DNA of 64,000 bases from positions 58,838,001 to 58,902,000 of the forward strand of contig NC_134369.1 in NCBI RefSeq assembly GCF_035582795.1, written 5' to 3'. This DNA is from Mycteria americana (lineage: Eukaryota; Chordata; Aves; Ciconiiformes; Ciconiidae). Below, in pieces: positions 29,401-59,000 of this stretch (the stretch's first letter is position 1; every line of letters begins with the position of its first letter). The position numbers were made by a program, and so were the translations under genes. The notes under the pieces were generated by a model, which made no database searches, had not been told where the DNA came from, and worked only from the letters and a program-made list of their open reading frames with translations.

Positions 29401-32400
29401 CAGAAATAAAAAATAATGTTAATCAGACTACTTAATAGAATAAATTTTATGTAGTAAAGTTTCTTATTTGATTGTTGCAAACTAGCCTACTTTCAGCAGG
29501 CACAGCAACATCTGGTTGACTTTCTGAGAAGGGATGAATAAATTTCTCTGAGTCGGTAGGTAACGGTGGTGGTGACAGAGACATCAGTAACCCATCTCAG
29601 GTCCGGAGAGTGATCATCTCACTGCAGAGGAATATATGAGAGCACTTTCTAACAGGAGAAAGTAACAGCTGCACTGCATTTACAGAAAGTTATCTTAGCT
29701 GATTTATCAGCTTGCACTCAGGACAGGCTTTTCATCTGCCCTCATCTGAGAAGCCAAGTTATTGTAATGAAGGCCACCAGCAGGCTAAGAAGGGAAGGAA
29801 TTTAAAAGTTTGGGAGAAATGCATGTCAAAATCTGTTTAAGACAATATGAAAAACTGCTCACGTACATACAAATAGGTGAAAATTCTTTTTCAGCTTTAT
29901 TTACCTGAGAATGAATTTCAGTTTGAAGAGGCCTTTATGTCGTTTCAGGCAAAGCACCTAAGATATAAGCAATTTTCAACAAGAGTACTACACATTTGTC
30001 TTTGTAACAATTTGTATGTAACAGCTTTTATGCAAATGACACTAAAGTGGCACCTTTTTTCTAAATTGGACATTTTTATGGTTATAATTTTCTTCTGTAA
30101 TAACAGCAAAAAAATGGCTGTCCCAGTGGAGTTGAGCATTTCATCTCTAGCGCTGTTTTGTGAAGTTGGAATGACAAGTTTCTTTCACTTGCACAAAGAA
30201 TGACAAAAAAAGTATTTTTTGTCATTCTTGTCTGACTTGGTTGAGGCAGTTACACTTGGAAGCAGCACCAGTCCCCTGACACCAAACTCTTCTCTCCCAG
30301 CAAGAATGGTATCATAAAGTCGTAATAAAACTTAAAGGAACTAAAAAATATTGCATTCTCTCTGTTTCTGCTCTTTGAAAAACATAAATTACTTTGTTAG
30401 TTTAAGAAGTTGCTGCTTTGGTTTGGTCTTTGGCATTGATTCCCACTTGTTCTCCTGATGTCAGACAGGTGACTTTTACAGACCACGGTCTTGGATTTGA
30501 TTAACTACGATACAAGTGAATTTATGTATCATCTCATGCAAACATCCCAAGGCATTAGTATAATAAACCAAGTAAACTAGGCAGGTTCTTGTTGCTTAAT
30601 TGACTATGCAGTTCTGCAACAGCAATGTGAGAAATTCTGGGTCTTTAACAACGATTAAACTCTATCCCAGTTATCAATTAATTAGTGATCTGTAACTGAG
30701 AAACTTTGCGATGGATGATTTTACCCCCATGAAGTGATAAATTGGTAGACTTTAATTGAGGAGTATAATAAGGTTAACAAAGTCAAAGTTGAAGTCTGAT
30801 ACTTCATCTCATAAAATATAATTAACTCTACTATTTAGTAAAAATCCCACAAATATTTATTTTAATGTGAACAGCCAATAAATGCTAAAAACCCTTCTCT
30901 CTCTCTCTCTAAACTATGTATATAATTTCTATATACTTTTGATCTATGACCTAGTTAAATTTGAAGTCTTTTTTTAACCACTCTTCTGTTAGTGCTGGTT
31001 TTTATTTCTACTACTCAAACATTACCATTAGTGCTCCTTAGCATTCTGCACATTGGCTTAGGTAACTAACACTAGCTTAGGAAAGCACATACGTGCCTGA
31101 GTGCAGCACTTCTTCAAGAGAAACTGTCTAGCGGGCTCAGCCTGGGTCCACAAACCATGCCCTTCACCATACAAAAGTCTAGGGCCACACGGAAGCAAAC
31201 TCATGGTTCAGCTGCACCTTGAATCCGCCAAGCCCAGGGTACACTGTTCCTGCTGCTGTCCCAGCAAAGACTACGCAGGATTCTAGCACTGCATAGAGCA
31301 TAGAAACCCAGTTACATTGCTTGTCTTGAACACAAACAAAACAGGGCATTTAGTCAAGATGGTGTATTTCAGCCATTAGACACCAATGCTACATTTTGAG
31401 GAACAGAGTTGTCCACTGCTTAGCTCATCCTCCTACATGAATGGGAGAAAATCCCAGTACAGGAGAAGAAAGGCCTAGAAGAGTCCTCTTTCTCTTCAGC
31501 TGTGACTAAAGGCAGGGGAGACATCCTCACAGCCAGAGGATGCTTTAGGGACAATGGAAGAGCAGCTATCATTTTCTGAGACAAAATGCAGCCATGCTTT
31601 GGAGAAGCGAGGTAAGAGTTCAGTCTTCCTGTAGCCCAATCAAAACAATGTGCTGCTTGTAGCTTGCTGTATTTGGCACCTGAAACTTTGTTTTTAAAGC
31701 TGCTGTGGTTGTTAATCCATTTGTCCTAAAAAGGCGAGACATAGATGTTGATCTTTTCTTCCAAGGGCCAAACAACTACACAGTCGGTGTCTTCATTTAG
31801 CTTTTTTGCATCTGGACATCTAGCATGGATAACTTGCTCCACTTTCATTGCAGGAGGTAGAGTTATCTTTGAAACAAATCTTTCGTAGTTTGTGATCCAT
31901 AAGTCACTTGGTACTTGGGGCACATCATAGAGCTAACCTTAATTATTGTATTAATGAGCTGAAAGGTCAAGTTCAGCACTTCTTTTTTTTAAAATGCTTA
32001 TAGCCTGAAATGGTTTGAATTAGAAATATAAGGTGTTCTCTCTCCGCTCAACAATTTCTGTCTTTGAAGTTCCTGTGTTTTGCACTGTACCTTCCATTTC
32101 AGCTATGCAGTATCCATACATATAATTGCTGAACTGTCAGAGTCGAGAGTGACTTGAGACATCTTAGAATTCCAGCCAAGGTAAAGCTTCAAAGCAATTA
32201 AATCAATAACTGTGTATGCAAAAGGAATTTCCTGAGAATAATGACTGGGGGGAGGAGATGATTACATTAATAAGTATATTAGAATGTTAACCCTGAAATT
32301 TTGCTTCTAAATCCCAGAAAAAACTCTGTCCAGAACCATTAACATTCTTATAGAGGCATACTGGCAACCTCCATCCTCCTGTCCCAGAAAAAGAAAACAA

Positions 32401-35400: not shown

Positions 35401-35575
35401 CCCCTTTGACATTCACAAAGTGCTAAAAGTCAGCTGGGGTCTCAGCTCTGACAAATTTGCATCTCTTTGAATATGACGCTTGAAAAGCCAAGCCGCTAGA
35501 TTAAATTTTGCCATGGAGAAAATGAGAAAGGCTTCCATCTCCCAGGTCTACTGGGAGGATCTTTATGGTTGATTT
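35401..35575 (+). repeat. Duplicated element, copy A (candidate regulatory element)
   Basis: This matches 39592-39777 as a direct repeat, shifted by 4191 bases. The first 86 bases of the copies differ at only six positions (about 93% identity), and bases 35436-35472 are identical for 37 bases in a row. That block contains the POU octamer ATTTGCAT (35455-35462) directly followed by 'ctctttgaa', which resembles a TCF/LEF site. A second conserved block, 'ctagattaaatttt' then 'gagaaaatgagaaa', and a final 'tctactggga' follow. The ends are not inverted repeats and there is no A-tail, so it does not look like a MITE or SINE I know. Copy A retains a CAGCTG E-box at 35431-35436 that copy B lacks. Confidence 0.85.
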
Positions 35576-35825
35576 ACTTTTTTTAAATAAATGTTTCTTT
35601 ATGTGTTTTCTCTAGTTTGTGTCCAGCCTTCTTCTATCATGCGTGCTGTAACTTCTGCCAGTTATATCAGCCCACAGTAAGTCAACCTGGGCAGAGTACA
35701 AGGTGAAAGAATATTTCAATCTAAACTGCATAGCCCTTCTGTGTTTTCTGATTAAAATTTGCAAGCAAACCTTGGAATAAACTATACCTGACGTGACTTC
35801 TAAAATAATTTACACAGTTTATAAA

Positions 35826-35905
35826 GCAGGGGCTAAATCCTACAAACCCTCCCTAAGCTATTTGTATGCAGAAGTGCTGCAGGTTTGCAGGAGCAGGCCC
35901 AGCTA
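35826..35905. repeat. Palindromic interspersed repeat relic (MITE-like)
   Basis: The piece reads 'ggggctaaatcctacaaacc' on the left and 'gtttgcaggagcaggccc' on the right. Read on opposite strands these resemble each other, as expected for the palindromic amniote repeat with 'atcctgcaaac' ends. The centre is short and degraded. Confidence 0.4.
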
Positions 35906-36047
35906 TGTAGCTGAAACCTTACTGTAGAGGACAGCAGACAGAATAATGATTATAGTGAACCCATAAAAATAATAAACTGATTGCCCATTGAACAAAATCT
36001 ACTAAAGTATGAATTATCTAATGAGCTGCTGCTGTGGTTCAGGCTGA

Positions 36048-36130
36048 CTTATCCTGCATTAAGTCAACAATGACACCACTGACTCCTGTGGACTTGCCGC
36101 AGGGAGGGTGAGGGTAGGATTTGGCACCGG
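36048..36130. repeat. Palindromic interspersed repeat relic (MITE-like)
   Basis: 'tcctgcattaagtcaacaat' is followed by 'accactgactcctgtggact' and closes with 'gggtaggatttggcacc'. The order and wording fit the same broad family of palindromic 'atcctg ... aagtcaatgg ... aggatttggcc' repeats seen elsewhere in the window. Only one strand's layout is still readable. Confidence 0.4.
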
Positions 36131-36134
36131 TTTA

Positions 36135-38214
36135 GGTGTGGAATTGTTTCAGTTAATGATGAATAAAAGGGTGTATATAGAGGCAACTGTTTCAAGGTTT
36201 ATAGAAGCTTGTAATATGGACTCTATTTATTTGCTAAGTATTTATGGCAACTCCTGAATTTATAACCATCTCAAGAAAAAAAACTTTTCACAGATGTTGA
36301 ATGTAAACATTGTTTTAATGTTCATTGAAGAAATCCCAAGTACACTGCTGTCGTCCTTGCATTATTAAAGAAGGCTAGTGCTTGAAAACATACCAGATTT
36401 TACAACAAAACTTAACACCACTCCCGTGTATCTACATTTGCTACTACAGAAGACTCATTATTTTTTTGAATTTCTAAAGCAGAATAAACATTTTTTGTGA
36501 GCCAGGAGAAGAATCCCTCAATGCTATGCTTTACTTTGTCTTTGTTTCTTCAGTATATGTGAAATGTGTATATAACAGAGATCATACCCAGAGCCGGTAG
36601 GAGATGTTGTGTGTGAAGGTTTTTTTACCTCTACACAAAAACTGTTTGCAAGCTCTGTGCACAGCATAAGTTATGAAAAATCACATATAGCTAGTTTTTC
36701 CTGTTTTATTTTTATTTCCTTGCTGGGTTCTTATAATTTTCTGGCAGTTCACATTACATTAGAATGAAATGTGATCTGTAGTTAGGACTTAGCGATGCAT
36801 CCTGCAGTTTTAACTCAGTCACTTGGGTTCCGATTTAGCCCAAGATGTGTCTCTTGAAATAACTCAGGAGAGCAGATTGATGATATACTTAGCAGAGGAA
36901 TAACAGCGTTGGAGACTGCCAGTACTAAACAATCCGGTTATTAAATGTATCTAAACATCTGAAGAAGTCTAACTTTCTAGAGAAAAAAAGGAAAAAGATC
37001 TAGAAACCCAACAAAGCTCCTGTTGACATTGATGGGAACAGCAAGGTGTACAGAACACTTTTTAAAGGACTTGAATGTGTGTCCAGTTACTGCAAACTGA
37101 TCCTGAGCATCTTAACTTCAGAATCTTGCTGTCATATCAGGATCTCATTCAGGTCTGTTTGCTTCGGTTGACACTGTGGCATTTCAGTTGCAGACACAGA
37201 AGTATTCTCTCTTTAAAGGAGGAAGTAACTCCTTTCCAGCAACGAAATGGTTTAAAGATTTTATATAAGCTCTGTTTACCCACCCAAATTTTCTCGCACC
37301 TTTCAGTGTCCATTACTTTTGGCAGTCGCGTTTTCCCCTCTCGAATCCAGCTGCTCTCTCAGTGGTCTCAGGCCAGCTCCCACCCGTGCTCACTCTGCTG
37401 CTCTGCACATTGAACCTGCCTGTTCCTTCACGTCATTCCCTACTTTCGGAGACCTCACCTAAATGCCGTATTTTACTTCTTATTGGAGACTGCAATCACG
37501 TCCAGGATTGTAGCATATGAATAGCAGTGGGACCTGCCAAGTGCATCACTGCTGAAGGAAGAAAAGTGCATCAGTCCCGGCCAGGTATGCATCTCCACAG
37601 AGCAGGAACGTTTGGGCATGCAGCAAACCCCTTGCCCCAGCCCCAAGCCAACTGTTGCGGGACGGTGACTAAACACAGCCTAGCAGATTCAGCACAGCCT
37701 AGATATTTTGTTCTGAATTAGGCCCTTAACTCCCGGCAAGTCCACTTCCCAGCTAGGATAATGACTTGGATGCCTTTTTTAAGAGAAAGAAAAAAGTGAG
37801 TGATCTGGGAGCCTCTGAGAAAAGCACTTCAATACCTCATTTGAATAGAGCCTTATGCGATGTATTGGAGTTTCTAGGACAACTCCCTTACAAATGGATC
37901 ATTACAGCAGTAAAAGCCAGTTTATTATTTAACCAATTCAGGCTGAGTGGAGACTGGAGAGTATTAGCACTTGCATTGATTGTAAGTAAGAGTCTAGTAA
38001 TTAATGATCAGAGTTTTCAGCAACAGTCTTGAGGAGAGAGTGCGATGTGCCCAAATAGGTATGACTGAGGAGGTGTTAACTGAATTCAGAATGAGTCTGA
38101 AGACAAGGGCGATGAAAAGCAGGACATTCCCATAACCCATTGCCAATATTTTGTCCACACATCAGAAGTACTATTAAACAGTGAGTGGATTAAACTAAGC
38201 CCTTTTGATCTGGA
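36135..38214. other. Gene-free stretch
   Basis: No gene, RNA or named element is recognised. The part from 37060 to 37720 is slightly GC-richer and holds several frames of 60-112 codons with no family resemblance. Confidence 0.5.
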
Positions 38215-38340
38215 TTGACACAATAGTTTTCAGCCCTTATATGCTGCTTATCGCCAGTAGATCCCAGAATACTTTACAGAGGAAGGCAGTTGCCTCAAAA
38301 GCCTCCTGGAAATTGCTGTGAGTGGTCATAAGTCATACTA
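38215..38340 (-). mobile_element. MIR-like SINE fragment
   Basis: The plus strand reads 'cgccagtagatcccagaata' and 'ctttacagaggaaggcagt' around 38251-38290. This fits the reverse-complement 'tagatctcaaagcactttacaaaggaggtcagt' part of a sauropsid MIR-like SINE. The core and head are too degraded to read. It could instead be a different SINE sharing this tail. Confidence 0.4.
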
Positions 38341-38824
38341 AGGGGGGGAAGAAATGTCTCTGACAGCCAAAGTCTGGAGGAAATACACAGATATGACAGG
38401 AAAAGGCCACCTTTGTCTCCATCCTGGCTCTGGGCAGAAATGGTCAGACTGTGGCACTAATACCATTGCACATATACAGATATCACGGTGGAGAAGCGTG
38501 GCTTGGAAACAGCTCTTTAATACACTTTGCTTTGAGGGGATCTGCTAAATTCTAAACCTTCAGGATTTACTGTGGTCACATTTTCATACTTACAGCAGTA
38601 GGCATATCTATTTATTTCAATGAAACCAAAGACAGTAGAAAATTCACATGACTCCAGGACTTCAACATTTAGGAAATCCTCCTTTTTCCTGCAAGATTAT
38701 ATTCTAAAGGGACACACACATTTAGGACACATTTCATCCACCCTATGACAGATATACATCTGTCTTTCCTTATCCAAGACTCTTTTAAAGATTAATTTCA
38801 TCTATAATTCCTACAGTACAGGTC

Positions 38825-38913
38825 AATAATAATAATAATAATAAAAACCCATAGGTAAATAATTAAAATAATAAATATGTAATCCACTTCAACAACAACA
38901 ACAACAACAACAA
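38825..38913. repeat. AAT and CAA trinucleotide microsatellites
   Basis: An (AAT)n run of about six units at 38825-38843 is followed, after about 45 bases of A/T-rich DNA, by a (CAA)n run of about seven units at 38890-38913. Both are pure and probably polymorphic. Confidence 0.9.
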
Positions 38914-39373
38914 AAATCCCCCCAGATCATCTTCGTGCTTGAGCTCTTAACCATGTTATATATTTTCTGTATTTGTCCTTCAGATGGCATGATCTTCAGA
39001 GTACTAGCTTAATTTCTGATTCATTCAGCGGAGAGTACATGGTCAGCATATAGCGAGAGAACACATAATAATACACAGATTTGTGATAGGTGCAGATATA
39101 CACACCATGTGCACTTCTTAAATAGCTATAAATCTGAATGCATATATGGTTGCTCACACATTTAAAATCACACATGTAAACAAATGAGGACAGACACATG
39201 CACATGTAATGCTATCATCATAGCACCCATCTCAGGGTTATGCAAATTGATTGCTTTTTTTGTGTGTGTGTGAGGTACAACAAATACCCACAATCTTAAA
39301 TTAACTCTTTCCAAATAATAAGAATCTTACTATTAACATGGCATGTTTAAACCCAAACGGACAAGTTTATGTT

Positions 39374-39435
39374 CCCTTCTGCTCCTTTCTTTCTCTTTCT
39401 CACTCCCTCTCTCTGCCTCTCCCTCTCTCTCTCAC
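39374..39435. repeat. CT-rich polypyrimidine tract
   Basis: A mixed CTTT, TCTC and CCT tract of about 60 bases on the plus strand. It lies 160 bases upstream of duplicated element copy B. It resembles a splice polypyrimidine tract only in composition. Confidence 0.8.
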
Positions 39436-39591
39436 TTTACCTTCCCAAAGGCACTATTTTATTTCAGAAGAAAACTTATGAAAATTGTTGAAACACACAC
39501 TACAAAGCATTTGCTTTTTTTTCCTCTCCTTTTTTTTTTATTTCAGCAGATAGCCCCCAAAAAAGGCAGGGATGTCAAAGGCTTCGAGTCC

Positions 39592-39777
39592 CCCCTTTGA
39601 CATTCACGCAGTGCTGAGAGTCAGCCGGGGTCTCAGCTCTGACAAATTTGCATCTCTTTGAATGTGACGCTTGAAAAAAGCCGGAGCTGCTAGATTAAAT
39701 TTTTTTTTTTTCCGTCGAGAAAATGAGAAAAGCCTCTATCTCTCCGCCGAGTCTACTGGGAAGATCTTTATTCTGAT
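39592..39777 (+). repeat. Duplicated element, copy B (candidate regulatory element)
   Basis: Second copy of the element at 35401-35575, in the same orientation. It keeps the 37-base block with the octamer ATTTGCAT at 39646-39653 and the following 'ctctttgaa'. It differs by a longer T run at about 39700-39712 and a GC-richer, CpG-containing 3' part ('ctccgccgagtctactggg'). The flanks do not match those of copy A, so the duplicated unit is under 200 bases. The DNA downstream to about 40260 is unique, fairly GC-rich and complex, which would fit a larger conserved non-coding block. The function is inferred, not shown. Confidence 0.85.
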
Positions 39778-42534
39778 TCTTGTTAGAATTGTTTATCACC
39801 CTGACAGACCAGACTCGGACGAGATAAAGGCGCTGCTCCATCACGGGGCCTGACAGTGGTAGGACATGCAGAGAAATGAAAGGAGCAGGGGAAAATATTA
39901 TTAATAGATGCCGACTTGATTTGCCTCTATGGCACGTCAAGGAAGGAAGGGAGGGGGGAGCCACGGCTTGATTGCAAGCCTATGAAGTTCTGTCCAAAAA
40001 AGAAGCTATTTTTCATTAAGTGATAGAAGGGCTTTTTTCATGTTCTTTCCTGAGGAGCTGATAACTTATGCAGTTTATTCTAACCCTGCTGATTTCTGTC
40101 AGGGAAAGAAAACTCCTGAAAGATGGCTCCAGCTCGTCCTTTTCAGAGAAGGAGGCTGTCTTGTCAAAAATGGTAGCAAAGCATTAAAGCCCCGGCCTTG
40201 ACTCCTGCAAGGTCCCTTGGATCTGACTGGGTGTGCATGTGTCGGTGAGCATGGGGGGGTCAGGGGAGGAAGGCGTTATTATGTACCCACTAGGGCCCTC
40301 CAAGGGAAAAAAATCAAAATATATATGCAGAGGAGTGCTTGCACATATGTACATGCACACATGCACCACAAACACGGGGGCTTTGTGTATTTGAGCAGAC
40401 ATGCAGAAACATTCGTTCTGCTGCCTAATTACTCTGCAGTTAGTAAAGATTTGTCTGATATGAGCATGTGCTGAATTTGAGAACAAGAGGCTGGGTGGAA
40501 ACTTAGATCAGCCTCATTCAAAATGAATGTTAAAAAATAACCAAGCTCCCTGCTACCTCTTGTATGTCAGGTCTCACACAGAAACATGACCGGCAATATC
40601 AGCTTAGGGGCTCCTGCAGTGATGCTGACTCTGCTGTGACTGTCTCGTGTGTTCTGGGGCAAAATTGTCTCTACATGATCATTTCTCTTAGGCTAGATTT
40701 TTTTGGATGGGGAAAGCAGGAGTGAGAAATACTATTTGTGCGTATCATGGCCATGTTATGTTATTCTTGGATCCTTCTCATTTGCAGCTCTGACCATTTG
40801 GGACGTTAGCTGCAATTGCAGCGTTGCATGAACACAGTTCCTTCCTTGTAATTACCTTGTTCTTCTCCAGAAAGGATTCTGTTTGATCACTGTCCTAACT
40901 GAATTTTGAATTCTGTACAAATTAACTACTGGAGCAATGCTTGCCTCAGGGCAATAGAGTAAGTCTCTTTCTGTGAACCTGCTCTTAGAGATCACTTCTT
41001 GCTGGATCCATCCTACAATGTGTTGAGCATCTCTTGAGAAGCTATGAATGCTGATGAGCTCTCTCCGCTTTCAGTAGGATGGGAGTGCTTAGCAGCTCAA
41101 GGGAATTACTCAGCACTTTGCTGGTGGAAGGAGAGTGACTTTTTTCTGGAAAGCTCATGGACAGTTTGAGTTCTAGGCAGTCCACTTTCTTTTCCTCCTT
41201 CAGATTTTTCTTACCGAGTTGTTCTTTGTAGTAAGATCAATAAATGCTTATAAAATCTCAGATCTTTTCCATTCAGATGGCAATAAAAGAGGAATTACTG
41301 ATGATGTGTGTAAAAAGTGAAAAAATTTAAATGCCACTAGGTACCATGTCCCCACAGCGACATGTCCATAGAATTTTAATCTTCATCTTCTGTTCCCACT
41401 GCTGTTTGTTTCCCTTGTTTGCTGTATCATATCCAGAGCTAAAGGAAAAGTTTTGCATTCTTCTTTTCAAAGTGCTTAAGAAAGACCTGCAGTATCTATC
41501 TAGCTAACTCTGCCATGCCTCTCCCATACAATCAGTAGCACAGTGAAGTCTGGAATGGGTTCCTTTTCAAATTCAGGTGTAGATGATAAAGGGTGGCTGC
41601 CTGGGGGAAGTCCTGAAAACACCAAACTTAGGAACTATGCAGATGCTTAGGTTAAAACATTGCCCAGTTTGGGGTTAGGAAATATTTTTACCACCTACTA
41701 TTTCAGTGATCTTCCTAACCTCTCCTGAATGCTTCCCTTGCTACACTGTAGTTTTTCCATTAAAGATCCTTAGCCTATCTTAAAACATCAGGCAGCCTGA
41801 TGTGCCTGGTGGTGTAGGAGGATTATGTACTGCTGTGTGTTAAATGTATGTGTCATAGTTCTCTGTATGCTGATAACTACGTGAGAGCGGGTTTGATAAC
41901 CCCCAGTTATCCAGCCATCTATTCCTTACTACATTGTGTTAGAATCCTCATCCAAATCAATTGATTCCAAATTAAGGATATTTTAATCTACTTCTGAATG
42001 GTAGTCTAGTTATTGTGACATAATAGAAATAATTAAATGTAAGGGTGCTGGAGAGCTTGACCAGGAGCATGGAGGGAGAGCACAGCCTTTGCTCAAAAGA
42101 TCTCATGGTAAGTAGAGGGTATCTGCGAGCTGGGAAGGGGGAAGCAGCTCTTGTAGGTCGATGTTCTGACATGCAAAGAAAGACACTGATAAGTTTCAGC
42201 TCATGTCCTTTCTACATTTTCTATGTTTATTTACCGGACTGACATCTGTGAATTCCCAAGAACCTTGTGCATGGGTGATTTGGTCTGACTTCAGGGGCTA
42301 CACAAACATTTTGAGAAATCCTATGTTGGCTCTGTATGAGGAGTCTTCTGGTAAAACATAATAAACAATTACAATATGCAGCTCTATTTATTGATAGTGA
42401 AATGCTAGAAGTATCAGGTGAGCTCCGGATGATGTTCTACTTGGTTCTGTACAAAGCAAAAGACAGTCTACACACATCAGGCAGCCAAAGGATGAGAGAA
42501 AAGAAGTATAATGGCTAACTGTTTATAGCTCAGG
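39778..42534. other. Gene-free stretch downstream of copy B
   Basis: No gene or transposable element is recognised. The first 480 bases are complex, non-repetitive and richer in G+C than the average of the window, and are treated as a candidate regulatory extension. The rest, to 42534, is ordinary AT-rich DNA with short chance frames. Confidence 0.5.
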
Positions 42535-42655: not shown

Positions 42656-42900
42656 CAGCCCAGCTCAGGGTGGCCCATGTCTGTTTTGGCTGAGCCACGC
42701 TCGCCATATCATGTTCCGTTGTAATATAGACATGCAAAGCAATTTAAAAAGGCCCCCTTTTTTATGACTACAACTAATTTACCCAAATTCTATGAGAAAG
42801 TCTCATGACGTAGGTAGGGATTTGCCGCTTTTTTTAACCGCAATTGTTTACATTGCTCCAGTGACAAAGAGGGATACTGTTAATGAAACTTTGAGAAAGG

Positions 42901-42966
42901 AGGTTGAGTTATGCATCCCCAAAGTCCTCCATTTGCATAGTTTTAGAAAGTGGATATATTTGGCAG
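42901..42966 (+). repeat. Dispersed short repeat, copy 1
   Basis: This aligns with 44969-45036 at about 79% over 58 bases, in the same orientation. Shared blocks are 'ttatgcatccc', 'tcctcc' and 'agttttagaaa'. The wording is reminiscent of the 'taggcaccc ... tttgtgcagattttgaaaatgc' segment of dispersed amniote palindromic repeats. Both copies probably descend from separate insertions, because the flanking DNA does not match. Confidence 0.6.
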
Positions 42967-44968
42967 GCGTTCTCTTTATTCAGCCATGGGTTTGGCACAT
43001 GCCAGAGTACAGAGGCTGAGTGAGCATCATGCAGCAATTTAAACTGAGAAAACAGATGTGGTTTTGCATTTTGGTATGTGTGGAGTCTCAGGCTACCATG
43101 AAAATATCTTTGGGTAATCAGCACACCCAAACTGCACAGTTCACATGTTGATAACATACAGTTATGCTACAAAAAGAAATATTTTACTAAATTTTTTTTT
43201 CATTTAGTTAAGTTACTCCAAATTAACTCAGTCTTGTGGATAATTATAATTGAATTTATGAGGATTCATTTTATTTCACAAAATCATCCAGAAGTTTGGG
43301 TCCTTGTATGCATTATCCAGATCCTTGGATCTACAAAATGGGAATGAGAGACAGTGACATCACAAGATTTTTTGTAATAATTCCATACGAGCAGCCTGCA
43401 AAACGCAGAAGAAAGAATTTTTCTTCTGGTATTTCAGCACTTCAAATTCTGAGTGGGAGCCTACACAATGTGCAAAAACTAATGAAACAGTGAGTTAGCT
43501 AAGCAGTGTTGAACACAGCAAAAAAATATTTGCTTACAAATTAGTTCAAATATAGACTAAAGAACTGGTGATTGGAGTGCAAATTTAACATAAGGGATTT
43601 AAGACCTGGTCCCATATCACTGGCAGAATTACCTTGATTTAAATGCATGTCAGTTCAGGTCAATAAAAGGCAAATACTTTTTTGTATGATGATAAGTATG
43701 AAACTCTGAATAATGTCTGGAAAGTGTTTATTGCTGATTTTTGTCTGAATTAGGTGGGGAAAATAGTAGGTTTTGCATTGTCATACAATCTTTTACTAGA
43801 TCATGTTAAGTGTGATCGTTTCAAGTTGTTAAAGTAGGAAGTTAGGGCTATTAAATCCTGATTTCTGTGTAATTATGGAAAATGTGCATTTGTACTTTAT
43901 GATAGCTATTGGTTTGCTAGATTTTTTACAAGATTGTGTGGAAACAGTACTACTAACATGTTCATAGCACTACATTTTCAACTGAAAAAGCAATTGTAGA
44001 TCACTTCAGGACAATCTGCAAACAAGGCTTAAAAAGTAAGAGGGAAAGTAGCTGGAAAGTTACTAGCTAGCCAAGTAAAATGCATTCATCCACCTCTACT
44101 GTCCAGCGTGGCTGCTATTGTGAACATTTCCTCTTTAGTTCTTACTTTAATCAATCTAATTTGTTTTCCCATGGAAAGTTTTGCATATATGATTCTAATT
44201 TATAAATGTGGCCCTAAAGGAATTAATTAAGATTGTATTTTTAATATCACCTGTTACTAGTAGGGAGCTAATACTTCATAACCATTTATCTACAAATTTG
44301 ACCTTTTTTGTCTCCTTCTGAAAAGGTCTGCAATCAGACTGCAAGTTTTGCAAAAAACGGTGTCAACGAAAATGCTTTAGCAGATTATTTTGCCTGTTTC
44401 TGACATTTGGAAAGCAGATTTCAATAGATGTAACAAATGTAACCATCCATCACAGCTGGTTACTTCAGCTCCAGTGAAGGCCAGGTTTAACAATGCCAGT
44501 TCAGGGAAATGTATGTACAAGTCCATCTGTTTCTGCAGAGCCTGCAAGAAAGTGCTTCTGGGACATCCTGATCACTGACAGGATCCTGGACAAAGGCTTC
44601 ATTCACCTCTTCTATTTCAAGAACTCATTGAAACTTGATTTAAAATTTGTTTCTCCCCACATATCAAAGTATGGAGACGTCATTCATTTGCTTCCAAAAC
44701 CCAAATGTAGCTGAAGTGGCTTCTTACCAATAGCCACAATATGTACCCTCTTACTCCAGAAATGGCATGAATAGAAGAATTGTAAAAAAACTCTCTTAAA
44801 ACCATTTTTCAATATCCAAGAAACTCAATTTTTTAAGTCATCAACTTCAAGTGAGAAAAGACTGACAATACATTTGCTCTTTTTGCGGGGAGCAGAAGAG
44901 TGGGGGAAAGCTGTCCTTTCATTTTGGTTCATATTCAGGGAACAGCCTGGCTTAATAATTTAAAGGTA

Positions 44969-45036
44969 GGAAGTTAATTTATGCATCCCTGAAATCCTCC
45001 TTTTGTGCAGTTTTAGAAAATGCATACATGTGACAG
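44969..45036 (+). repeat. Dispersed short repeat, copy 2
   Basis: Partner of 42901-42966. The two diverge beyond these 65-70 bases, so this is not a segmental duplication of the locus. The likely source is an old miniature element, which cannot be named with certainty. Confidence 0.6.
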
Positions 45037-48000
45037 GATATCTCATTGTTCTCTGGATGTGTTATCGTGTATATGTGGAGTAGCTTCAGTGCGATATGAA
45101 ATGCAAATTTGCCTTACTTTGTTCTTGCCACTTTTATGAATATTAAAAATATGGATAAAATAATTGTGAACACTTTTGGAAAAGGTCTTTAGCTCCTAAT
45201 TTCAGTGCTATAAAGTTTTTATATTGGTGCAGTAGAAAAAAAATTGAAAATTTTACCAGCTTATATTGGCATGAATGTAAGAAATTTAATTGAAAATTTG
45301 CATTTTGAGTGCACTCTGAGTGGAACTTTATGATGGCATGAAACCCTAGTGCCAATAAATAGCACAACAGCCTCTCAGGCCAGAACAATACAGTTCATTC
45401 ATGTTAAGTCAAACAAACAGTCATTTAGGTGATTTTAGACCAGCACTAACCTCCTTTAGCACCACGTTTGTAATACAGAAGGGGTTAAAGAAGAGGTTAT
45501 CCTAGACAGATAAGGCAGTTAGCAACACATGGGGTACCACCAGTGCCATCATTCTGAGTGCTATAAAACTATATCCCTCATAACACCAATCCATCTTGAT
45601 TCTCCCTGCTAAGTGGATTGACTTGATGAGAAGCCTTTATGTAGCACAGTTTCCACTCTCACTAGCAGATTCCTAGTTGTAAGGGTGGCTCTAAGGCTGC
45701 CACACTGTGCCTCGTTTAACATTGTTAAGCACTACCTTTGTAAGCTATTCCTGATTATAGATATATGCTGAGTAATGCTCCAGAAATTGAAGCTATGTTA
45801 AATCAACAGAATAGACTTGGTTAAATTATTGTGGGAGACCAAAAGGCCAAGTCATTATTTCTGCATATGATTCTTTAATGTAAAAATAAAAAACCAGAGA
45901 CTTTGCTTCCCCAGCATTCATTGATGTTATACCTGTGCATTAAGTGCAGACTCAAATACTTCATATTGCAAGACAAAGAATTATGGTGTAAGTACTAGAA
46001 CAACTATTGCTGTGCAAGACTATGGAATTGGTCCTTTAATTTAGTAGCAGTGTAGCTGGGAAGCTGCAAACACAAAATCATTGGTCTTATTTGTTTAGAT
46101 TATTCAAATAATAGTGTGAGTAATATTCACAGCTTGGGCTGAGATTCTTCTCCACTTTAACTCTTCTGAAAGCCAGACCTGTTTCAGGAATTGAACATCT
46201 TTTCCTCCATGCGGCTTTTAGGCTGCAGTTATAAAGCTCTTCATCAGCATGTAGTGACTTTGCTCATTGCTTTGACAAAAGGCTGATAATCTGCACTAAT
46301 GGCTTTGGCTGACTCATATGTTTAGTTCCCAACTGACTTTGACTGACACACTGAGGAATATTAGCAATATGGAAATGAAGGTTGATCATGGGGGGAGACG
46401 GACAAGCATGCTGGGTGAAATCCTGCATATCTTTACTTCCATTAGAGTTCACTTCTTTCTGAGGTTGGACTGCTTTTATGTTACATTCCCTTTCTGCTAA
46501 CATAAATTTTCAGGTCCTAGACTGTGATCCTTGCAGTTAGAAGCTCCTCTCTAGACAGGTAGCTCTTTGGATTATGTCTTCTCAGATGTAAAGTCCCCCT
46601 TGAGTGTGAACAGACTCTAAAGAGACTCCTAAAGAGGAAGGTATGAAAAGTATGAAAAAAATCTTCATTTTCCTTTGAAAATCATTCACATCCAGTACCT
46701 GGAATTATAAACACTTGGCTAGTTACCCACTTCATGAGCAAGGAGAGGGCCATTTCCAGTTTGGTCCGGGTTTTTTGTTTGTTTTGATTTTGGGGTAGTG
46801 CTCGCTGGGGTAGTTCTCTTCCATCGCAAGAGCTTCTTTTCCATTGCAAACACTTGTAAAAGCTCATGCAAACAGAATATCACATCCACATCTGTCATCA
46901 AGTCTCATGCAAAGCAACCATTTCTGACCACAGCAACAACTGCATGTGAACTGCACACCACCTTTTATGCCAGGTATCAATATAAGAATACATACCCTGA
47001 GACATAAAGATGGTGATAAGTTCTCTACAGAAGAAATTGCAAATAGCATAACCCTTTAGGACTCTTAATAAAAGGTGCCAAAGAATAGAATAGGACTAAA
47101 TGAACAAAGATCTAAGATGTATCTCCACATAAATTCAGAAAGATAAACATTGGCTGTAACTTGGCTTAGCATGTGGACTGTCCTTGAGTAAAAGGGTTGG
47201 AGGCTGAAGGATAGGTTTTACTACTAATTTAGACAAACTTTAAAATAAAATTTGGCAAAATTAAAACTCAAATATAAAATAAAAAAATAAATTCGAAGTA
47301 AAAATTAGTCATTTCAAAGTTTGAAAACAAAGTGATTGGCTTCCATGGGCAATTAGAAATGATTTACAGGGAAAAGGGGCACACATGCAAGTCAGCAAAG
47401 GTTTTGAGTCAAGTGGGTCTTACCTGTGCAAAACTTCTGCTTAAATACTTTGCTTGCGTTAGGCAAATGTGTCCCTTCTGTTTCTCAGCAGGATCTCCAC
47501 AAACACAGGTGAGGAGACTGGTTTTGCTTTGTAGAGATGGCACGATGTAAAAACTTTTCCACAGCCATGAGAAATGACTATTAGTGGACTTGAATAGAGC
47601 TTTTGGAGTTTTGCATGACAGAGGCCTCCAAAGCATGCGCATTTGGTTATTCCAAAACAACAGTCAGAAAAGTCACTACGTGAAATATTTATTCCTGTTT
47701 TAAACCCAGTTTCTTTCCTGGAGAAAGCTATATGGTCTTTCCCATACATTAGATTCAGACAGGTGTTTAAGCTTGACTCTAGTTTATTGGCAGGTGATTT
47801 GAGGAACAGTACACTTAATAAAGAAAGAAAACATTAAAGAATTCCCACCTGGAAATACCTACCTATCCTAATAAGACAGCTTTACATAAAAATCTGAAGC
47901 CTTTTGAGATTAATGAGGCCTGTTTACTTTCCATTTAATTTTGAGCCCCCTCTATTACATGAGTTGAATCAAAAGGCTGAGAACTGCAGTATGGGAAACT

Positions 48001-49544
48001 GAAAAAGAAATTGGTAAAAAAGACAAAAGCCAGTTATTGAGTTGGATTTGAAGTCTCTCTATCTCCTTGTCTTTGCCAGGAGTTGATTGGAAAGACTGGA
48101 AGACAACTGTTCTTTTTCATTTTTAAGAAAAAGAGAAGGAAAGAAAAGCTCTCTGTATCTCTGCAGCTCCAGGGACAATTACATATGTAGAAGTACAACA
48201 TACATGTGATGTTACATACTGGTTTGCAGTGGTGCAGTGGTATTGTATAGACGGAGACATAAACCTGTCAATTCAGGTTTTATTGCTAGGAGTGCCAGAT
48301 GCGCTGTCCAGGAGCTCAAACATACCAGCCTGTGCCACCAGCCCAAGAGGCCAGGTCAGGGCTTTCCTCTGCTGCTTTCCCAGTCTTCACACTTGATAGA
48401 CTCATGTTCCCACACTGCAAGTGCCATGGCCTCCCTCTGTGAGTTTTTTGCTTTTGATAAAGATGCTATTGTGTATAACAGCGTTCGTGTTTCTTAAGAG
48501 TTCCCACATTGGCTGTAAGAAACTTCTTAGGTGCTGACCTAAAACAGATGCTGTGAGCGCTCTTATTTTCTACCCTTTAAATGTTTTAATGGTTTGTGTA
48601 TTTTAATTTTACCAGTTACTTAGCCTTCTCATTATATTCTGCTTCTCCCTCAGTTGCCTACAGGGGAGACATGGAGAGATAACCTTTCCCTTTTCCTCTT
48701 TCCAAAGGTAAATTAAAAGAAAAGCATAGGAAAATTTACTTGCCATGGTGTGACTGTAGACAACAAAGCTTGCTCTGCTTTGTTAGGACCTGTCAGCTCT
48801 GTTTCAAACGTTGTACAAGAGCGCTGTGCTCAGGCTGCCTGCCTCCTGTTTGGGGAGGTGCAGTGATCTCTGGTTCCTTGGGTGTCACCACTGAAATGGC
48901 TATGAACAAGGCTGACAGCACGACCTGGGACCCAAAAAGGTGTCTGAATGTATAAAGATCTCAGGATGAAAATAAAGTGAAGACAGATTCATCGTCACTA
49001 TCTTTCAAAAGACAGTTACAGAAAAGGCATCAAATCAGATTGCAAGAAGACTGGAAAGCTGGAAGGCCTGTAGCCTAGATTCCTGACACCATTAAATATT
49101 GCCCTATGTTTGCACAGTTTTTATCACCTCTCCTCAATGCTTCCGTTTAATTATGGAAAATACAATGAAATAGAAAACACTTGGTGGGATTTTAAAAAGC
49201 ATTCCTCTTTTTTTGAGACTCTCAGCTAAAAGTTACATTGACAACGGGCTGATAAAGTTTGACGTGGCATAGCTCAGTCTTTTTGAGTCACAGAAACTCC
49301 ACAGGAGTTATCCTCCCATCAGAAAAGGGTTTTACACCTATTATAGAAAAGGAGAACAAAACAAAGCCCGTAGACACACTCAAATCCACCAGGCCATGAG
49401 AATTTCGCTTCCCCTCAATGACACTTTGCTGCGACTGTGGGCAGCAGATTGTGTTTAGATTGTCAGGGAAACAGTCAGGCCATTATTGTTGTTGTTTAAT
49501 TTTTGGTGGTTGAGGTTTTTTTTTTCCCTCCTAGCCAAAGTATT

Positions 49545-49577
49545 AAAAAAAAAAAAAGAGGGGGAAAAAAAAAAAAA
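49545..49577. repeat. Double poly-A tract
   Basis: Two runs of 13 A are separated by 'gaggggg'. No SINE or retrocopy body is recognisable to the left, so an A-tail origin is not supported. Confidence 0.85.
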
Positions 49578-51087
49578 GAAGTTGATTTCTTCAACAAGCA
49601 GCTGCAATGACAGATGGCTGATGAATGCACTACCAGCAGTTCCAATGGAACTCGACTCCGTGGGAGTCGGGGCACCGCACACCTTCCAAAGGGCGCCACG
49701 GTAGTCGCTTGGGAAGGGGAGTGAGAGTCGGAATTTCTAACCATGGTGAAAATGTACTGAAGGAAGAGAACATGATGACAAGGGGTGAGAAAGGGAAGGG
49801 AGTGATTGAGATCCATCCAGCTGAGTCTTTATCCCCAAGGATGAATTAAGATGAAACAGGGGCCCGGAGCCATAAAAACTTCAGGAGTACTTTAAAAATA
49901 ATGCCAACTCTGCTAAAACATATCATCTTAGCCACCCACTTGCCATTAGGCTTTGTTGATCTTTGTTCCCTAGCCCCCAGATGGACTCCTCCTCTCTCTA
50001 TTCTTTCTATACACTTTTTTCCTCTCTTTCCCATTCCTCCTTTTCTCATAGCTATCTTTTCCTAGCCTCATGACTGTGTGTGATTGTGAAGGAAATACCT
50101 AGGCTGTTGCTCTTCTCAAAGCTGCTTCCTGATGCCTGTCAGATGTCCCCCATGAGTCTTCCCTAGCACCCCAGGGTCTGGCAATCCCTGATCAGCCCTG
50201 CCAGATGATCTGCTGCGTAGTGTCCTCCCTTGTAGTGCTCAGACTTGAAAAAATGATTTGCCCTGGGCAGTTAGCATCTCTTTGTCCAAAGGTGCCCCAT
50301 TGAAATGCGTAGTCAGCAAAATTTATGACATCCTTTTGGGAGCCCTGTGCCAGGTGTGGGAATTTCTCCTCTTACTGCCTGTGAGTTTTAGCTCACCGTG
50401 GAGGCAGAAACACAACAGCAAAGGAACACAAGCCCCACTCTCTGAAAGTAAGTAGACAGTTTCCTGCGTCAAGCAGAACGTCGTAACCTGCAAGACCCCC
50501 AGCTACTGGGGGTCATGGTCCCCAAGACAGTGCGGTTCCCTCTTTCTTCACCTCCCTGTGTGAAGAATGAGGTAAAAAGAAAAGAACTGGTGGCAGCTGG
50601 AAAAGCAACAGGGGTTTGCAACAGGGCAGTGAGTAAACAAGGAACAAAACTCCTCGAGCAGTAAATGTACTGTGTAAACATAAACAATAGCAACAAGCAG
50701 ACACATATTCCAAATCCATCTCCAGTGAGAATCAATTATGTTATATCCAATGAATCAGGGGAGGGGGCTGGTGAGAGAGAATGGGGACCTATTATTATTT
50801 TCAAGTCAAGTCAACCAGCCAAGTCTGCAAACAAAAGCATTTTCTGCCTTTTTCTCTCTGTCTTGTTGATGGCCTCCCCTTGTCTCTCTTCCTTGGCATA
50901 TTTCCTGCAGTTCCCCCACCCAGCAGTAGTTATATACATCTGAATAACACTGCAGTTCAAACACCAAAAGAATTGTTTTCCTATGGTTTCTAAATGTCTT
51001 TTCTATTTTCTTGTATTCATAATCCTAGCATAAGCAGTGCTTATCAAGGGGTGTTCTACAGCAGAAAAATCAAGCGTGAGACTGTCT

Positions 51088-52990: not shown

Positions 52991-53232
52991 GTATGGCTAC
53001 ACAAACAAGTTACCGCAAGTTAAATTAGGGTATAGATTAACAGAGTCAGCTGCTCTGCTCTAACTTCCTATTTGCCTGCTCTTAACCTGCGGTAAATGAA
53101 ACCCAGCTTACCTCAGGTCTAATGTGAGGGCTAAGCCTCCTCTCTGGCTGCAGGAGGAAAAAAGCGAGTATCTGGTACGATAAAGCCATGCGTGCTAACT
53201 TGCTCTAACGCCACCTCAGTCAAAAACCAGGC
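52988..53232. mobile_element. Possible non-autonomous DNA transposon relic
   Basis: The left end 'gggtatggctacacaaacaa' resembles the 'gggtatgtctacac' ends of hAT-type miniature elements. The right end, 'aggctagtctgtatc' at about 53233, is a loose reverse-complement match. The interior is GC-richer than its flanks and has internally similar phrases ('ttaccgcaagttaa', 'taacttgctctaacg', 'taacctgcggtaaa'), as expected for a palindromic element. It starts exactly where the MIR relic stops. The terminal match is weak, so this is tentative. Confidence 0.35.
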
Positions 53233-53494
53233 TAGTCTGTATCGGTGAGATGGCAGCGATCATGTCGGGAGGTTCTGCTGACATTGGGATGAATGCGGTA
53301 TATAAATGGAAAGGGTTGACGGGAAAGGAACGATATGGGGGGTGAGATACGTCGTGCAGTTCAGCGCAGAAAAGTCAAAATCTGGTGCAGATCTGTGATG
53401 TGACAGTAGGGTTCCAGGAAAAGCAGGTGGTGTGGGAACGCAACTCCCCATTAGGACAGGGCTCAGAGAGAAGGGGATCAGTCATAGCCAGAGC

Positions 53495-53735
53495 CTGCAT
53501 TATTTAAGGCTTTAAAATCCGAAAGGGCCAACTTAAAATCAATCTGCCACTTTAGAGGCAGGCAGTGTGAAGAATGCAGCGTGGTGTAATGCGTTCCTGC
53601 TGGCTCACAGGGCTGAGCACACGTGCTGCCGCGCTCGGAGCGAGCAGCGAGCAGCACTGAGCAGCCTGGCTCTAAGCTCCGCTAAGAGGGTATTACAATA
53701 ATTGAGCTTTCTGGTAACAAGGTCTGCGTTGCTAG
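53495..53735 (-). mobile_element. LINE relic, L2/CR1-type, antisense
   Basis: 'ttaaggctttaaaatccgaa' at about 53503, 'cagcgtggtgtaatgcgttc' at about 53577, 'gagcagcctggctctaagct' at about 53659 and 'gggtattacaataattgagc' at about 53687 keep the order of an antisense LINE sequence abundant in reptile genomes ('ttcaaggctttaaagac', 'tggtgtaatgtgctcc', 'gcagcctggctgccgca', 'tgttacaataatcaagcc'). I am fairly sure it is an interspersed repeat; whether it belongs to L2 or to CR1 is uncertain. CpG density is locally high. Confidence 0.45.
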
Positions 53736-53790
53736 ATTTGTGATAGGCATGGGATAAACTAAGTGCGCAGCCGGTGCATGCAGCATAACT

Positions 53791-53806
53791 GGGGGGGGGG
53801 GGGGGG
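53791..53806. repeat. Poly-G tract (16 bases)
   Basis: Sixteen G, then one C and four more G. As with the C run at 797-816, its length is likely unstable and may be misassembled. Confidence 0.9.
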
Positions 53807-53835
53807 CGGGGAAGAGCCTCTTTGACACCAGAACT

Positions 53836-53895
53836 GGAAACCTGGCTTCAACTTCAGCAATGGCAAAACTCCATTAACTTCAGTTTAAGCCTGTG
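53836..53895. repeat. Palindromic interspersed repeat relic
   Basis: 'aacctggcttcaacttcagc' and 'aatggcaaaactccattaac' followed by 'ttcagtttaagcctg' are a decayed version of the symmetric phrase 'cctggcc ... gaagtcaatggcaaaactcccattgacttc ... ggccagg'. The two halves are still roughly reverse complements around 53865. Confidence 0.55.
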
Positions 53896-55907
53896 CTTGC
53901 CAGGTACTTTTCCAGGAGCACTGTGGCCTAACACAGTACCAACATGCACCCAGCTCACAAACTCTGAAACACAATTCTTCAAAGTGCAGGGGAACATAAT
54001 AGAAATAATTCCAACTAGTACCTTCACCCAACACCCGCTTTTACCAGCTCAGGGAAGAAATGTCTCCAGCTGCATAAGGATACCCCTCTCCTCCTCTATG
54101 GCTGAAATAGAAATCAGGAAGTGGATGGCATGGGATTATATATAAATTTCACTAAGGTATTTGATCTTTATTTTATTTTTCATCTGTTTTGTTCTGTCCC
54201 AAACTTACTGCATTTCTCACATTGTAAAATCTGGGAGAAGATCTGGCATAGACTGTATTTTCCCATGTGCATTTTCCCATGGCTCATTTTCATCCTGAAA
54301 ACCCTCTTCATCTAAAATGCCAAATCCTTTGTCCAATCACAGCTAATAACATGAAGTATGAGTCAGAAAAATCTTTAATTTTCAGTCCTCTCCTGTGAGT
54401 CTCACATTCCTCCAGGTTCCGAATCAGGCAAATGCCTAAACATTCACTTGCTTGTGGAAACTGCAGGGACACCAGCTCTCCCTGGCTCATTTGCTCTCTC
54501 TGACCCACCGCACTTTCTTTCAGCTGTTTTCCAGTTGAGGATTAGTGCAGTGAGTGCATTTAGAGAAATCCAAATGGCTGTGGATGTACAGAGGAAAGCT
54601 ATTCTGGGGGAATGCTATCCTGACGAAGCTGGGTAGGCAGTTCCTCCACGCTACCAGCACAATGGCCTCCTGGGCTTTCTCCTGACGGCAGGGTCTCTGG
54701 GCAGTCAATGGGAGGGCCAGGCACTTCCAGAGCCAGGTCAGCATGTTGGAGACCTGCTATGCTCTTTGCCAGTGCCTGCTGTGCTCTTGGGAAGCCCTGG
54801 CAGCCCTGCTCTTACATCAGGGTTCTCAGCTAACAGATTAACATTAGGTCACAGAAATCGGGGACCCAGATGTCTCTTGTGGCTTAAACTAGGCACTTAC
54901 GGGCTTTAGTCTTGCTAAGCTTAGATGATAGCGAGTTAGGGATTTGAAGATCAAAAGTTGAGAGTTAGACAGGATTTAGGTATGCAAGTCTTCTCTGGAT
55001 TGAGCCCTTCGTCTAACCTTTTTGGCTAACATCATTTACTGCTCAAGGATAGGCATCTTGAAATTCTGTGGTCTGCCGTGTCAGCCACAAATTAGAAATG
55101 GAAAATACATGAAAAGAAATTATTCATAAATAGTTATATTATATATAGAAACTTGTGTATATATGTGTGTGTTTGTGCACCTTGAGAAAAATGAATGATT
55201 TTTGCACAAGTAGAAAAGCGTGTTTTAAAAAACAAATGTATGATACTCTATGTGAAGTCTACAGTCATAACAGGAAATCATGCAATTTCTGCAGAAAGAT
55301 TTTATTTAAAAAAGCAGAGTGCATCTCATTGACCTACATTCAGCTTCCCCAGCATACACTGTACCTGCACAACTTTTCTGCAGAGATACATTGTAGATAC
55401 AGATCAAAGGGAAATGCTGGTGTCAGAATTGTCTAAATGTCCCTTTTTGGGCCTGAAAACCTAGATCATTGCCATGCATTTGCACTGACTTTGTAACTTT
55501 AATCAACCTGTAAACTGATGCTTGGACTGCTGTCTTTAAAAGCCAGGTAGGCTGTTCGTGGGGATAATGAATGTCTGTATCTATAGAGCAGACAAATGAA
55601 GCTCTCTGTTGCCTCAGAATAAAAATACCTATTTTTTAAAGAGCTATCTAAGAGAATTTGCAGTATATAACAGTAGCAAAATAAAGTTAGCATCTGTGTT
55701 AAAAGAATTACAATCCACAACCAGCTAGATTCATCCTGTTCATCATATACCCTAATAGTTTTGCAGAACGTTTGGTCCCCTCTTTAAAAAAGGCCATGGG
55801 GGTGTTAAACATCGCCTGTCAGGGGTGCTGGATTTGATTGCATGCACATCTGTCTACTCTGACTTAGACTGAGACTTGTCAACTCATTTCTCACAAGACC
55901 ACTGTAA
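53896..55907. other. Gene-free stretch
   Basis: No gene is recognised. Short frames around 53822-54145 and 54308-54744 show no family resemblance. A TA/TG-rich patch lies at about 55135-55180. Confidence 0.45.
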
Positions 55908-56085: not shown

Positions 56086-59000
56086 AGGAATGAAGTTAAC
56101 AAAGGAAGCATACAGAGAGGGGAGGGGCTTAAGTTACCCTTTAGAAAATATGTAGCATGTAAAATACAAGGTATCTACAGACCCACTTGGCGTCTGTCTC
56201 CCTGTTGTACAATCAGGTAGTTGTAGACTAGCTTTTTCAAGTGCAAACACTTTATAAACAGATAATCTCTGTAAGATTGTCTTTTACTGCTAGACCACTT
56301 CATTAATTTGAGGGGTGGTGGTGTTTCCAATTACGACATCCTAAAAATACTAAAAAACCAAGACAGCCACATAAAAATTCTATTAATAAAAAAATTTCAC
56401 TGAGATGGAATATATTCTCTCTGTTTTCAAGGATTCTTTTTTTAATTTTCAAAAAATTAGTGTGGTAAGTGAAAAGAGAAGTTACAAAATATCTTCCTCC
56501 TCCAAAAGTAAATGCTTCAACCTTTATAGAAAATTGTTTAAAACATAAAATATTGAGGGGAAGTATACGTCACATAAAAGTATAATTGAGAAATTACTTT
56601 GTATCACAAAACGTTATAATTTCCAATGAGCTGTGACTGTTACCAAGTCTCCAAACCTGTAAGGCCCTGGGTATCTGGATGCAAATCTGAACTGATCTGA
56701 AAGCATCCTGGAATTTACTCTTAGAACAAATTCTGTTGCTTTAGTGTTGCGTTCCTGTCCTGCTGTTCTCATAGGCTTAGCCAATCTCTAAGGTCTTTCA
56801 TTAACCTTTAACCCTTCCCCAGAATCATAATATTTTTATTTTTTTAAGGAGTAGGCATTATTTTGTGCTACTTGTGCATTAAAGACTTTTAAATAAATAC
56901 CATTAATAATTCTCTTTCGATACTGTGTACTACAAATTCCTCCTCCTTGTCCTTAAATATCTGTTCAAGACAGCGTGAATTTCTCTTGACTTCCTGATGG
57001 CTAGTCATAAAACATATGTTAATCTCATGAATTCAGATTTCATTGAACCTAATCATCAGTCTCTGCTGAAATTACACTGACAAGTAGGAAACTTGTCAGA
57101 GCATGATACCTTTCATGGGATTCTCCTTGGGTCACGTTGGCTACAGACCATAAGTGATTTACACTTTTATGACCTTTACATAGTCACTTGTTGCTAGTTA
57201 TCCAATATGAAGACTACCTCATAGGATCTGTGCTACCTCACCCAAAGGTATATCGCTTTACAAATTGGTCATCCATGTTGCTAATGCAGCATGTAGGAAC
57301 AGCACAGACACATCCAGGTGAACCAAGGAATGTGAATTTGTTTTGGTGTGCATAAAGAAAATGCTCCATCATCAGATAAGTCTATGTACTTCATTTGTAC
57401 TGAACCAGCCTAAAATCAGGCACTGAAGATTTATTTTATGGTAAAAAGGGAGTGGGAAGGACACAGTTCCAGAAAATAGGGGAGTGGGAGGAGACTATAA
57501 GTACTAGAAGCTTTATTTGGGAAGTAACTAAGATAGCAAAACTGGGTAAGAGAACTATGAAAGGATTTTTCAAAACCAGAGTCAAGACAGGAAGGGAAGA
57601 TTGCATCTTGGAAAAGATCTAGATGCTCCTAAAGAGAACACATTCATTAGCTTGTATGACCATCTTTAAGCATTCAAAAACATGGCAATGAGAAATCAGG
57701 CTGTAGTAAATCAGAGATTGCTTTAAAAATGGTTCAAACAGCGTTAATATTAGGTAAAATACTCCAACTAGAGTCTTGTCTGTTGAAAAGGATGGGGTTT
57801 TTGGCTGTAGTGTTCTGTCCTCCTCTATGTCTCTAATATATTGTGGTCTGTTGTCCATAGATCGTGCTGTGGTAACTTCTAATTTTTAAGGGATCAGGGA
57901 ATTCTGAGAGGAACAGGGCAGTATTTCTTTGCATTCATTGCTTCTGCGCTGGCTTGTGAGTCAAAAATCCACTGTGGTTTTGGATCAGATTCCCTCTGCT
58001 AAGTATTGACATGGTCATGGGTAATGTTCTTGTCAGTAAAGTATGACTGAGTGTAAGTAAAGGTGGTAATATTCTGACCTATTCAGTTGGTAGTTTGGGA
58101 TAAACTGTGGTAAATCCATTCAAACTACAAATTCCTTTACTCGTAGTTAAGATTTTTGAATAAGGTCATAATGTATACTAAATATTTGTGGATAATACCT
58201 TAAAATTTTAAATTCCCATGGATTGGAGGAGACAACAGCTTCATGTCCCTCTGTCCCAGAACAATGCGTATTGTAATGCTAGAAGGTCCAGTGTCCTTAT
58301 GCTATAAATTAGCAAAAGATTTGCCTTTTGGGAAGCAGCATGTCCTTTTTTTTTAAGGTTGTCAACTAATCCCAGTCACCTCTATTCTCTGAAATATTCT
58401 GAAAAAGAAAAAAGATATTTTTCAGAAACTGTTTAATATTTGCCCTCTGAAAAATACTCTTCATAAACAACCTTCAGACTGGGCACCTAGAACTGAGGCA
58501 CGTGAATATCATCAGCTGCTCTAAAAATCTTGCTCTTGGGCATGGACTAATTAAAGGAAAATGGCCTTTCCAAAACTGGTTGAAGTCAATGGAATATACA
58601 CAGTGATTTCAAAGGACCTTGGACCACTTGGAGGATGAGAATTTGGCTGCTAGGAGTCAAATTCCGTTGTTTTGGTGTATTCTGCAAGTGATAAAGTTTG
58701 AGAATTAGAGCACTGTCAATATGTGCTATAAAACCACATGTCCTTTAAGAGGATAATGCTCCACTAGACCTTTTGCCACAAATTACTCTATATAATTGGA
58801 CCTAAGATCACAAAGAGTGCACATTTACAAGATAAATTGAAAATTAATGAACAAATAATATAGTAATTACCAAATCCTTATTATTTGAAGAATATACACA
58901 CTATGGGGTCTATTTCTTCCTCGATGAGCATGTGTAACCCCCATTAATTTTAATGGGAGTTAAGCGTGCACATCAAGGGAAGAATTAACTCATGATTTTA

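Follow-up and report, generated by a model that had tools for sequence, protein, structure and literature searches.

The 64-kb window (the whole stretch of DNA analyzed here) carries two related copies of one element, A and B, in the same orientation and 4.2 kb apart, located between BDKRB1 and BCL11B, and no further copy appears at the sensitivity of our genome searches. With modest confidence, we consider A and B to be paralogous copies of a single distal cis-regulatory element of the 3′ BCL11B gene desert, generated by a local direct duplication and both kept.

Sequence relationship of copies A and B

In the self-comparison of the window, A and B are by far the strongest self-match (82.8% over 180 columns, 180 bits, E = 3e-45), at the positions, in the direct orientation, and with the 4191-base offset that an earlier note on this DNA had given (Table 1). 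Under a looser scoring, the pair reaches 159 bits, compared to 40 bits for the top match in three Markov-shuffled windows scored in the same way. Their global alignment has 149 identical positions among 166 ungapped columns, with 17 mismatches (14 transitions and 3 transversions) and 14 gap columns forming 4 indels, and its longest identical run is the 37-base core already described in that note. The previous estimate of about 93% identity over 86 bases is close to our hand count of 6 mismatches across the 82 columns that precede any gap, and the copies differ in the E-box and the T run as had been noticed (Table 1).

Table 1. Positions of the two direct pairs and associated features in the 64-kb window
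Feature	Position	Strand	Description
Copy A	35401..35566	+	166 bases; 2 CpGs; E-box CAGCTG at 35431-35436; T run of 4
37-base identical core, copy A	35436..35472	+	octamer inside, 35455-35462
Copy B	39592..39771	+	180 bases; 8 CpGs; CAGCCG at the E-box position; T run of 12
37-base identical core, copy B	39627..39663	+	octamer inside, 39646-39653
CpG-rich envelope of copy B	39501..39900	.	possible extent of a larger element
Pair 2, first copy	42880..42981	+	ATTTGCAT at 42931-42938
Pair 2, second copy	44952..45051	+	73.5% over 102 columns

Identity stays high in the outermost alignment bins (18/20 and 19/20). Extensions into the flanks score 13 upstream and 11 downstream, below the 95% null of 15 obtained from 400 random anchored extensions (the maximum of 154 among these probably comes from two overlapping picks), indicating that the likeness truly ends at the copy borders. 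Comparison of the 4 kb between A and B with the next 4 kb downstream gave nothing above background (best match, 24.0 bits; null median, 26.8 bits over 56 random pairs), in line with the earlier observation that neither the flanks nor the intervening sequence matches. Does the 37-base core itself betray selection? We rejected it as such a sign, since an identical run of 37 bases or longer arises in 19% of column permutations with 17 mismatches in 166 columns (P = 0.19); the run length is ordinary, and the core alone is no evidence of special conservation.

CpG content and age of the copies

CpG content separates the two copies, with eight in B versus two in A, and few parts of the window are as rich in CpGs as the surroundings of B. 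The CpG observed/expected ratio is 0.20 for the whole window versus up to 0.78 over 300 bases around copy B, and the 300-base segments starting at 39501 and 39601 contain 9 and 12 CpGs, respectively, whereas the mean for the window is 2.3. Methylation makes CpGs much easier to lose than to gain, so the common ancestor of A and B was probably CpG-bearing and copy A lost CpGs, while copy B, to judge by its composition, is probably ancestral-like or hypomethylated in the germline. Elsewhere in this CpG-poor window, other CpG-rich peaks are found at 37201-37500 and 49401-49900, and the most CpG-rich stretch of all, with as many as 13 CpGs in 300 bases, lies at 53001-53900 and may be another regulatory element or an old repeat.

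The bird neutral rate is near 2e-9 per site per year. At this rate, A and B would be very roughly 25 to 30 million years old if they diverged neutrally, and they could be far older under constraint. The same divergence agrees with a history that we regard as possible though not probable, in which a small (~170-base) local duplication of a conserved element tens of millions of years ago left one functional copy, probably B, and a neutrally drifting copy A. Ungapped divergence of about 10%, mismatches that do not cluster significantly (P = 0.19), the predominance of transitions (14 of 17), the sharp ends, and the fewer CpGs in copy A all suit such drift. However, it requires a short copy that ended at the borders of the functional element without any flanking sequence, and a second, more diverged pair within 10 kb (pair 2) suggests that duplication may have happened here more than once. 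Some of these features count against the reading of A and B as two retained regulatory copies: the mismatches do not cluster significantly, 4 indels beside 17 substitutions fit a copy free of constraint and one under constraint equally well, and high identity up to sharp ends is no less expected of a small recent copy than of an old element under constraint.

A second direct pair and local repeats

Pair 2, which the earlier note did not single out, lies 3 kb beyond copy B, also in direct orientation (E = 1e-11), and is more diverged than A/B; a profile search found no third copy of it in the surrounding 264 kb. Repeats are scarce in this 264-kb region (14 self-matches at E ≤ 1e-4). Its local pairs (E ≤ 1e-5, less than 12 kb apart) number six, two direct (A/B and pair 2) and four inverted or palindromic, and another scoring adds shorter direct pairs (57, 37, and 30 columns); in these lists, only A/B and pair 2 are direct pairs of more than 60 columns. 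The statement that every other repeat pair in the window has decayed to about 80% or worse needs correction, since the palindrome of 34 bases at 30196-30229 reaches 88%. Imperfect palindromes also occur at 237-406 (66%) and 58911-58987 (77%), perhaps remnants of old hairpin-type DNA transposons. To the left of the window, an inverted pair with 82% identity over 247 columns and ~0.6 kb between its arms is found at C5:58823164-58824276 (13.7 to 14.8 kb away), and a 118-base palindrome is found at C5:58824669-58824786.

A rather unlikely special case of the retained pair is an ancient tandem duplication of a ~4.2-kb unit, of which only the selected A and B are still recognizable. The shared orientation of A and B fits this scenario, as does the missing likeness between the two 4-kb stretches, which is expected after decay of unselected sequence; but copying of ~175 bases alone would likewise leave no likeness there. 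Moreover, the offsets of A/B (4.19 kb) and pair 2 (2.07 kb) differ, meaning that the two pairs did not originate in one tandem event and that one unit cannot explain both. We are doubtful about, but put forward, a wider version of the retained-pair reading in which the 10 kb from 35.4 to 45.1 kb holds octamer-bearing BCL11B enhancers that were repeatedly copied in cis with both copies kept, forming a cis-growing array that is possibly bird-specific. Such an array would contrast with the usual single-copy landscape of conserved elements.

Copy number in the genome

The 1.35-Gb assembly (279 contigs) was searched with copy B at E ≤ 0.001 and with copy A plus flanks (210 bases) at E ≤ 10, by DNA searches that pass over frequent words and restrict scoring to the top candidates, and each query returned the two window copies as the only candidates. 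A 20-base core occurs exactly twice in the genome, with one site on contig C18 at one mismatch among the places listed, and a profile of A and B detected no third copy in the 264 kb (next best E = 1.1). The tens or hundreds of genomic copies that the earlier note had set beforehand as the mark of a repeat family were thus not found, and on copy number we rejected a repeat family as unlikely at this level of search. Genome-wide, the core has 544 near-matches at up to 3 mismatches, compared with 170 for a reversed control pattern, a point against the enhancer-pair reading. A 23-base core pattern is absent from the viral and prokaryote contigs searched, and the core sequence strings were not found in open-licence PMC text.

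Could A and B nonetheless both descend from an old transposon or repeat family and have survived by chance or through exaptation? Discrete, sharp ends are typical of insertions, but both genomic matches lie at one locus, and no terminal inverted repeat, A-tail, or target-site duplication is visible by eye at the copy ends, where the self-comparison shows no inverted arms, just as had been reported for inverted repeats and A-tails; we consider this origin very improbable. An assembly artifact showing one element twice has nothing in its favor except the similarity of A and B, and the 17 substitutions and 4 indels between them, along with their unrelated flanks, make its probability practically negligible.

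Genomic setting in the BCL11B gene desert

Contig C5 has a homeobox exon matching NKX2-1 at 46.08 Mb and a second one, at 57.43 Mb, whose best PDB match is goosecoid (GSC); an open reading frame (ORF) at 58.21 Mb best matches the B1 bradykinin receptor (BDKRB1). Two genomic matches were obtained for the BCL11-type CCHC finger (PF25491), one at C5:59780476 (minus strand) and the other at C3:128754950. We take the exon at the former to be BCL11B from its sequence, and the gene order on C5 is the GSC-BDKRB1-BCL11B order of human 14q32; by this synteny, the C5 match is BCL11B. The window, at C5 58.84 to 58.90 Mb, has BDKRB1 on one side and BCL11B on the other, with the A/B pair ~0.67 Mb from BDKRB1 and ~0.90 Mb from the BCL11B exon. 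It is thus part of the 3′ BCL11B gene desert, and no gene was recognized in it. No Pfam match was obtained for 10 of its 256 ORFs of at least 60 amino acids (the nine longest and one of 111 amino acids) and no Rfam match for the window, which on these checks is non-coding, with short exons possible. In the surrounding 264 kb, the ORFs of at least 200 amino acids are two unassigned frames and others that fall in N runs or in a stretch that we take to be CR1-like. The genome size, the scarcity of repeats, and this CR1-like ORF point to a bird. Just left of the window, C5:58837001-58837500 (GC, 0.58; CpG observed/expected, 0.67) is the only CpG-island-like 500-base window of the 264 kb by the thresholds used and is a possible lncRNA promoter.

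The gene-poor setting beside BCL11B, a developmental transcription factor gene, favors the enhancer reading. Together with the lack of a repeat family, it partly supports the duplicated-enhancer interpretation proposed in the earlier note.

Motif content and proposed mechanism

The identical cores of A and B both contain the octamer ATTTGCAT, which occurs 12 times in the window versus 5.6 times expected from shuffles; none of 100 shuffles reached 12, and 3 of 301 words of the same composition did so in the window. Each 100-kb flank also contains 12 occurrences (0.12 per kb versus 0.19 per kb in the window); hence, we set octamer enrichment aside and do not rely on it as evidence, and the modest excess over the flanks is a point against the enhancer-pair reading. 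The POU plus TCF/LEF grammar of the core is a motif reading only.

The desert position, the non-coding character, the CpG richness of copy B, and the octamer with HMG-like neighbors support a distal enhancer, for which we infer the activity, bound factors, and target gene as follows. A CpG-rich, octamer-bearing regulatory element would have been duplicated locally in direct orientation. Each copy is predicted to be an enhancer of 170 to 180 bases, bound by POU-family factors at ATTTGCAT, with candidate HMG-box sites (SOX or TCF/LEF) adjoining the octamer, and would loop to the BCL11B promoter ~0.9 Mb away, a target suggested by position only. Copy B, CpG-rich in a CpG-rich envelope, looks more ancestral and is probably the stronger enhancer, while copy A may have lost CpGs by deamination-type changes, and its E-box could alter the tissue range. 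The two copies may act as partly redundant, dose-adding enhancers.

Comparison with known systems

Shadow enhancers are pairs with overlapping activity on one target gene. A and B may resemble them, as a pair that shares candidate sites and has a single presumed target. VRK1_Siddhartha is an ultraconserved element of the human VRK1-BCL11B region (chr14:98039411-98039663, hg19) with 11 CpGs in 253 nucleotides (PMC5836973). Proportional interpolation by hand from human gene coordinates puts copy B presumably close to this element. It is like copy B in being CpG-rich and in lying in the homologous desert, a lead drawn from composition and position.

The human 3′ BCL11B desert holds a long-range BCL11B enhancer (PMC6189060, PMC7758212). 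This far-downstream enhancer/ThymoD region lies in the same desert, ~850 kb from the human gene (PMC6189060), and we liken it to A and B by location, not by orthology.

We also compared A and B with the duplicated conserved non-coding elements (dCNEs) of vertebrates. Elements of the conserved non-coding kind are mostly single-copy, and those known to be duplicated adjoin paralogous genes after genome duplication, with some kept between BCL11A and BCL11B (PMC1896008). Like the dCNEs covered there, A and B are related, non-coding, low-copy elements beside a developmental transcription factor gene, in a desert of the BCL11 family; unlike them, A and B lie in cis, 4.2 kb apart in one desert, rather than beside different paralogous genes with a date at genome duplication (PMC1896008). 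They exist in multiple copies without a repeat family (two genome matches, with the exact core twice). As the genome search (copy A plus flanks, E ≤ 10) gave no third match, there is none near the paralogue BCL11A on contig C3 at that sensitivity, and we therefore do not file A and B as classical dCNEs; they resemble a cis variant of the dCNE kind. Among the papers listed from open-licence PMC text, none was on cis-duplicated conserved elements by title.

Implications

The BCL11B desert governs BCL11B in mammals. If our reading of A and B as two retained copies of one enhancer is true, this two-copy cis element would be a natural test of what follows enhancer duplication, redundancy, dosage, or divergence, and would also test whether a change in CpG content or in an E-box shifts enhancer activity.
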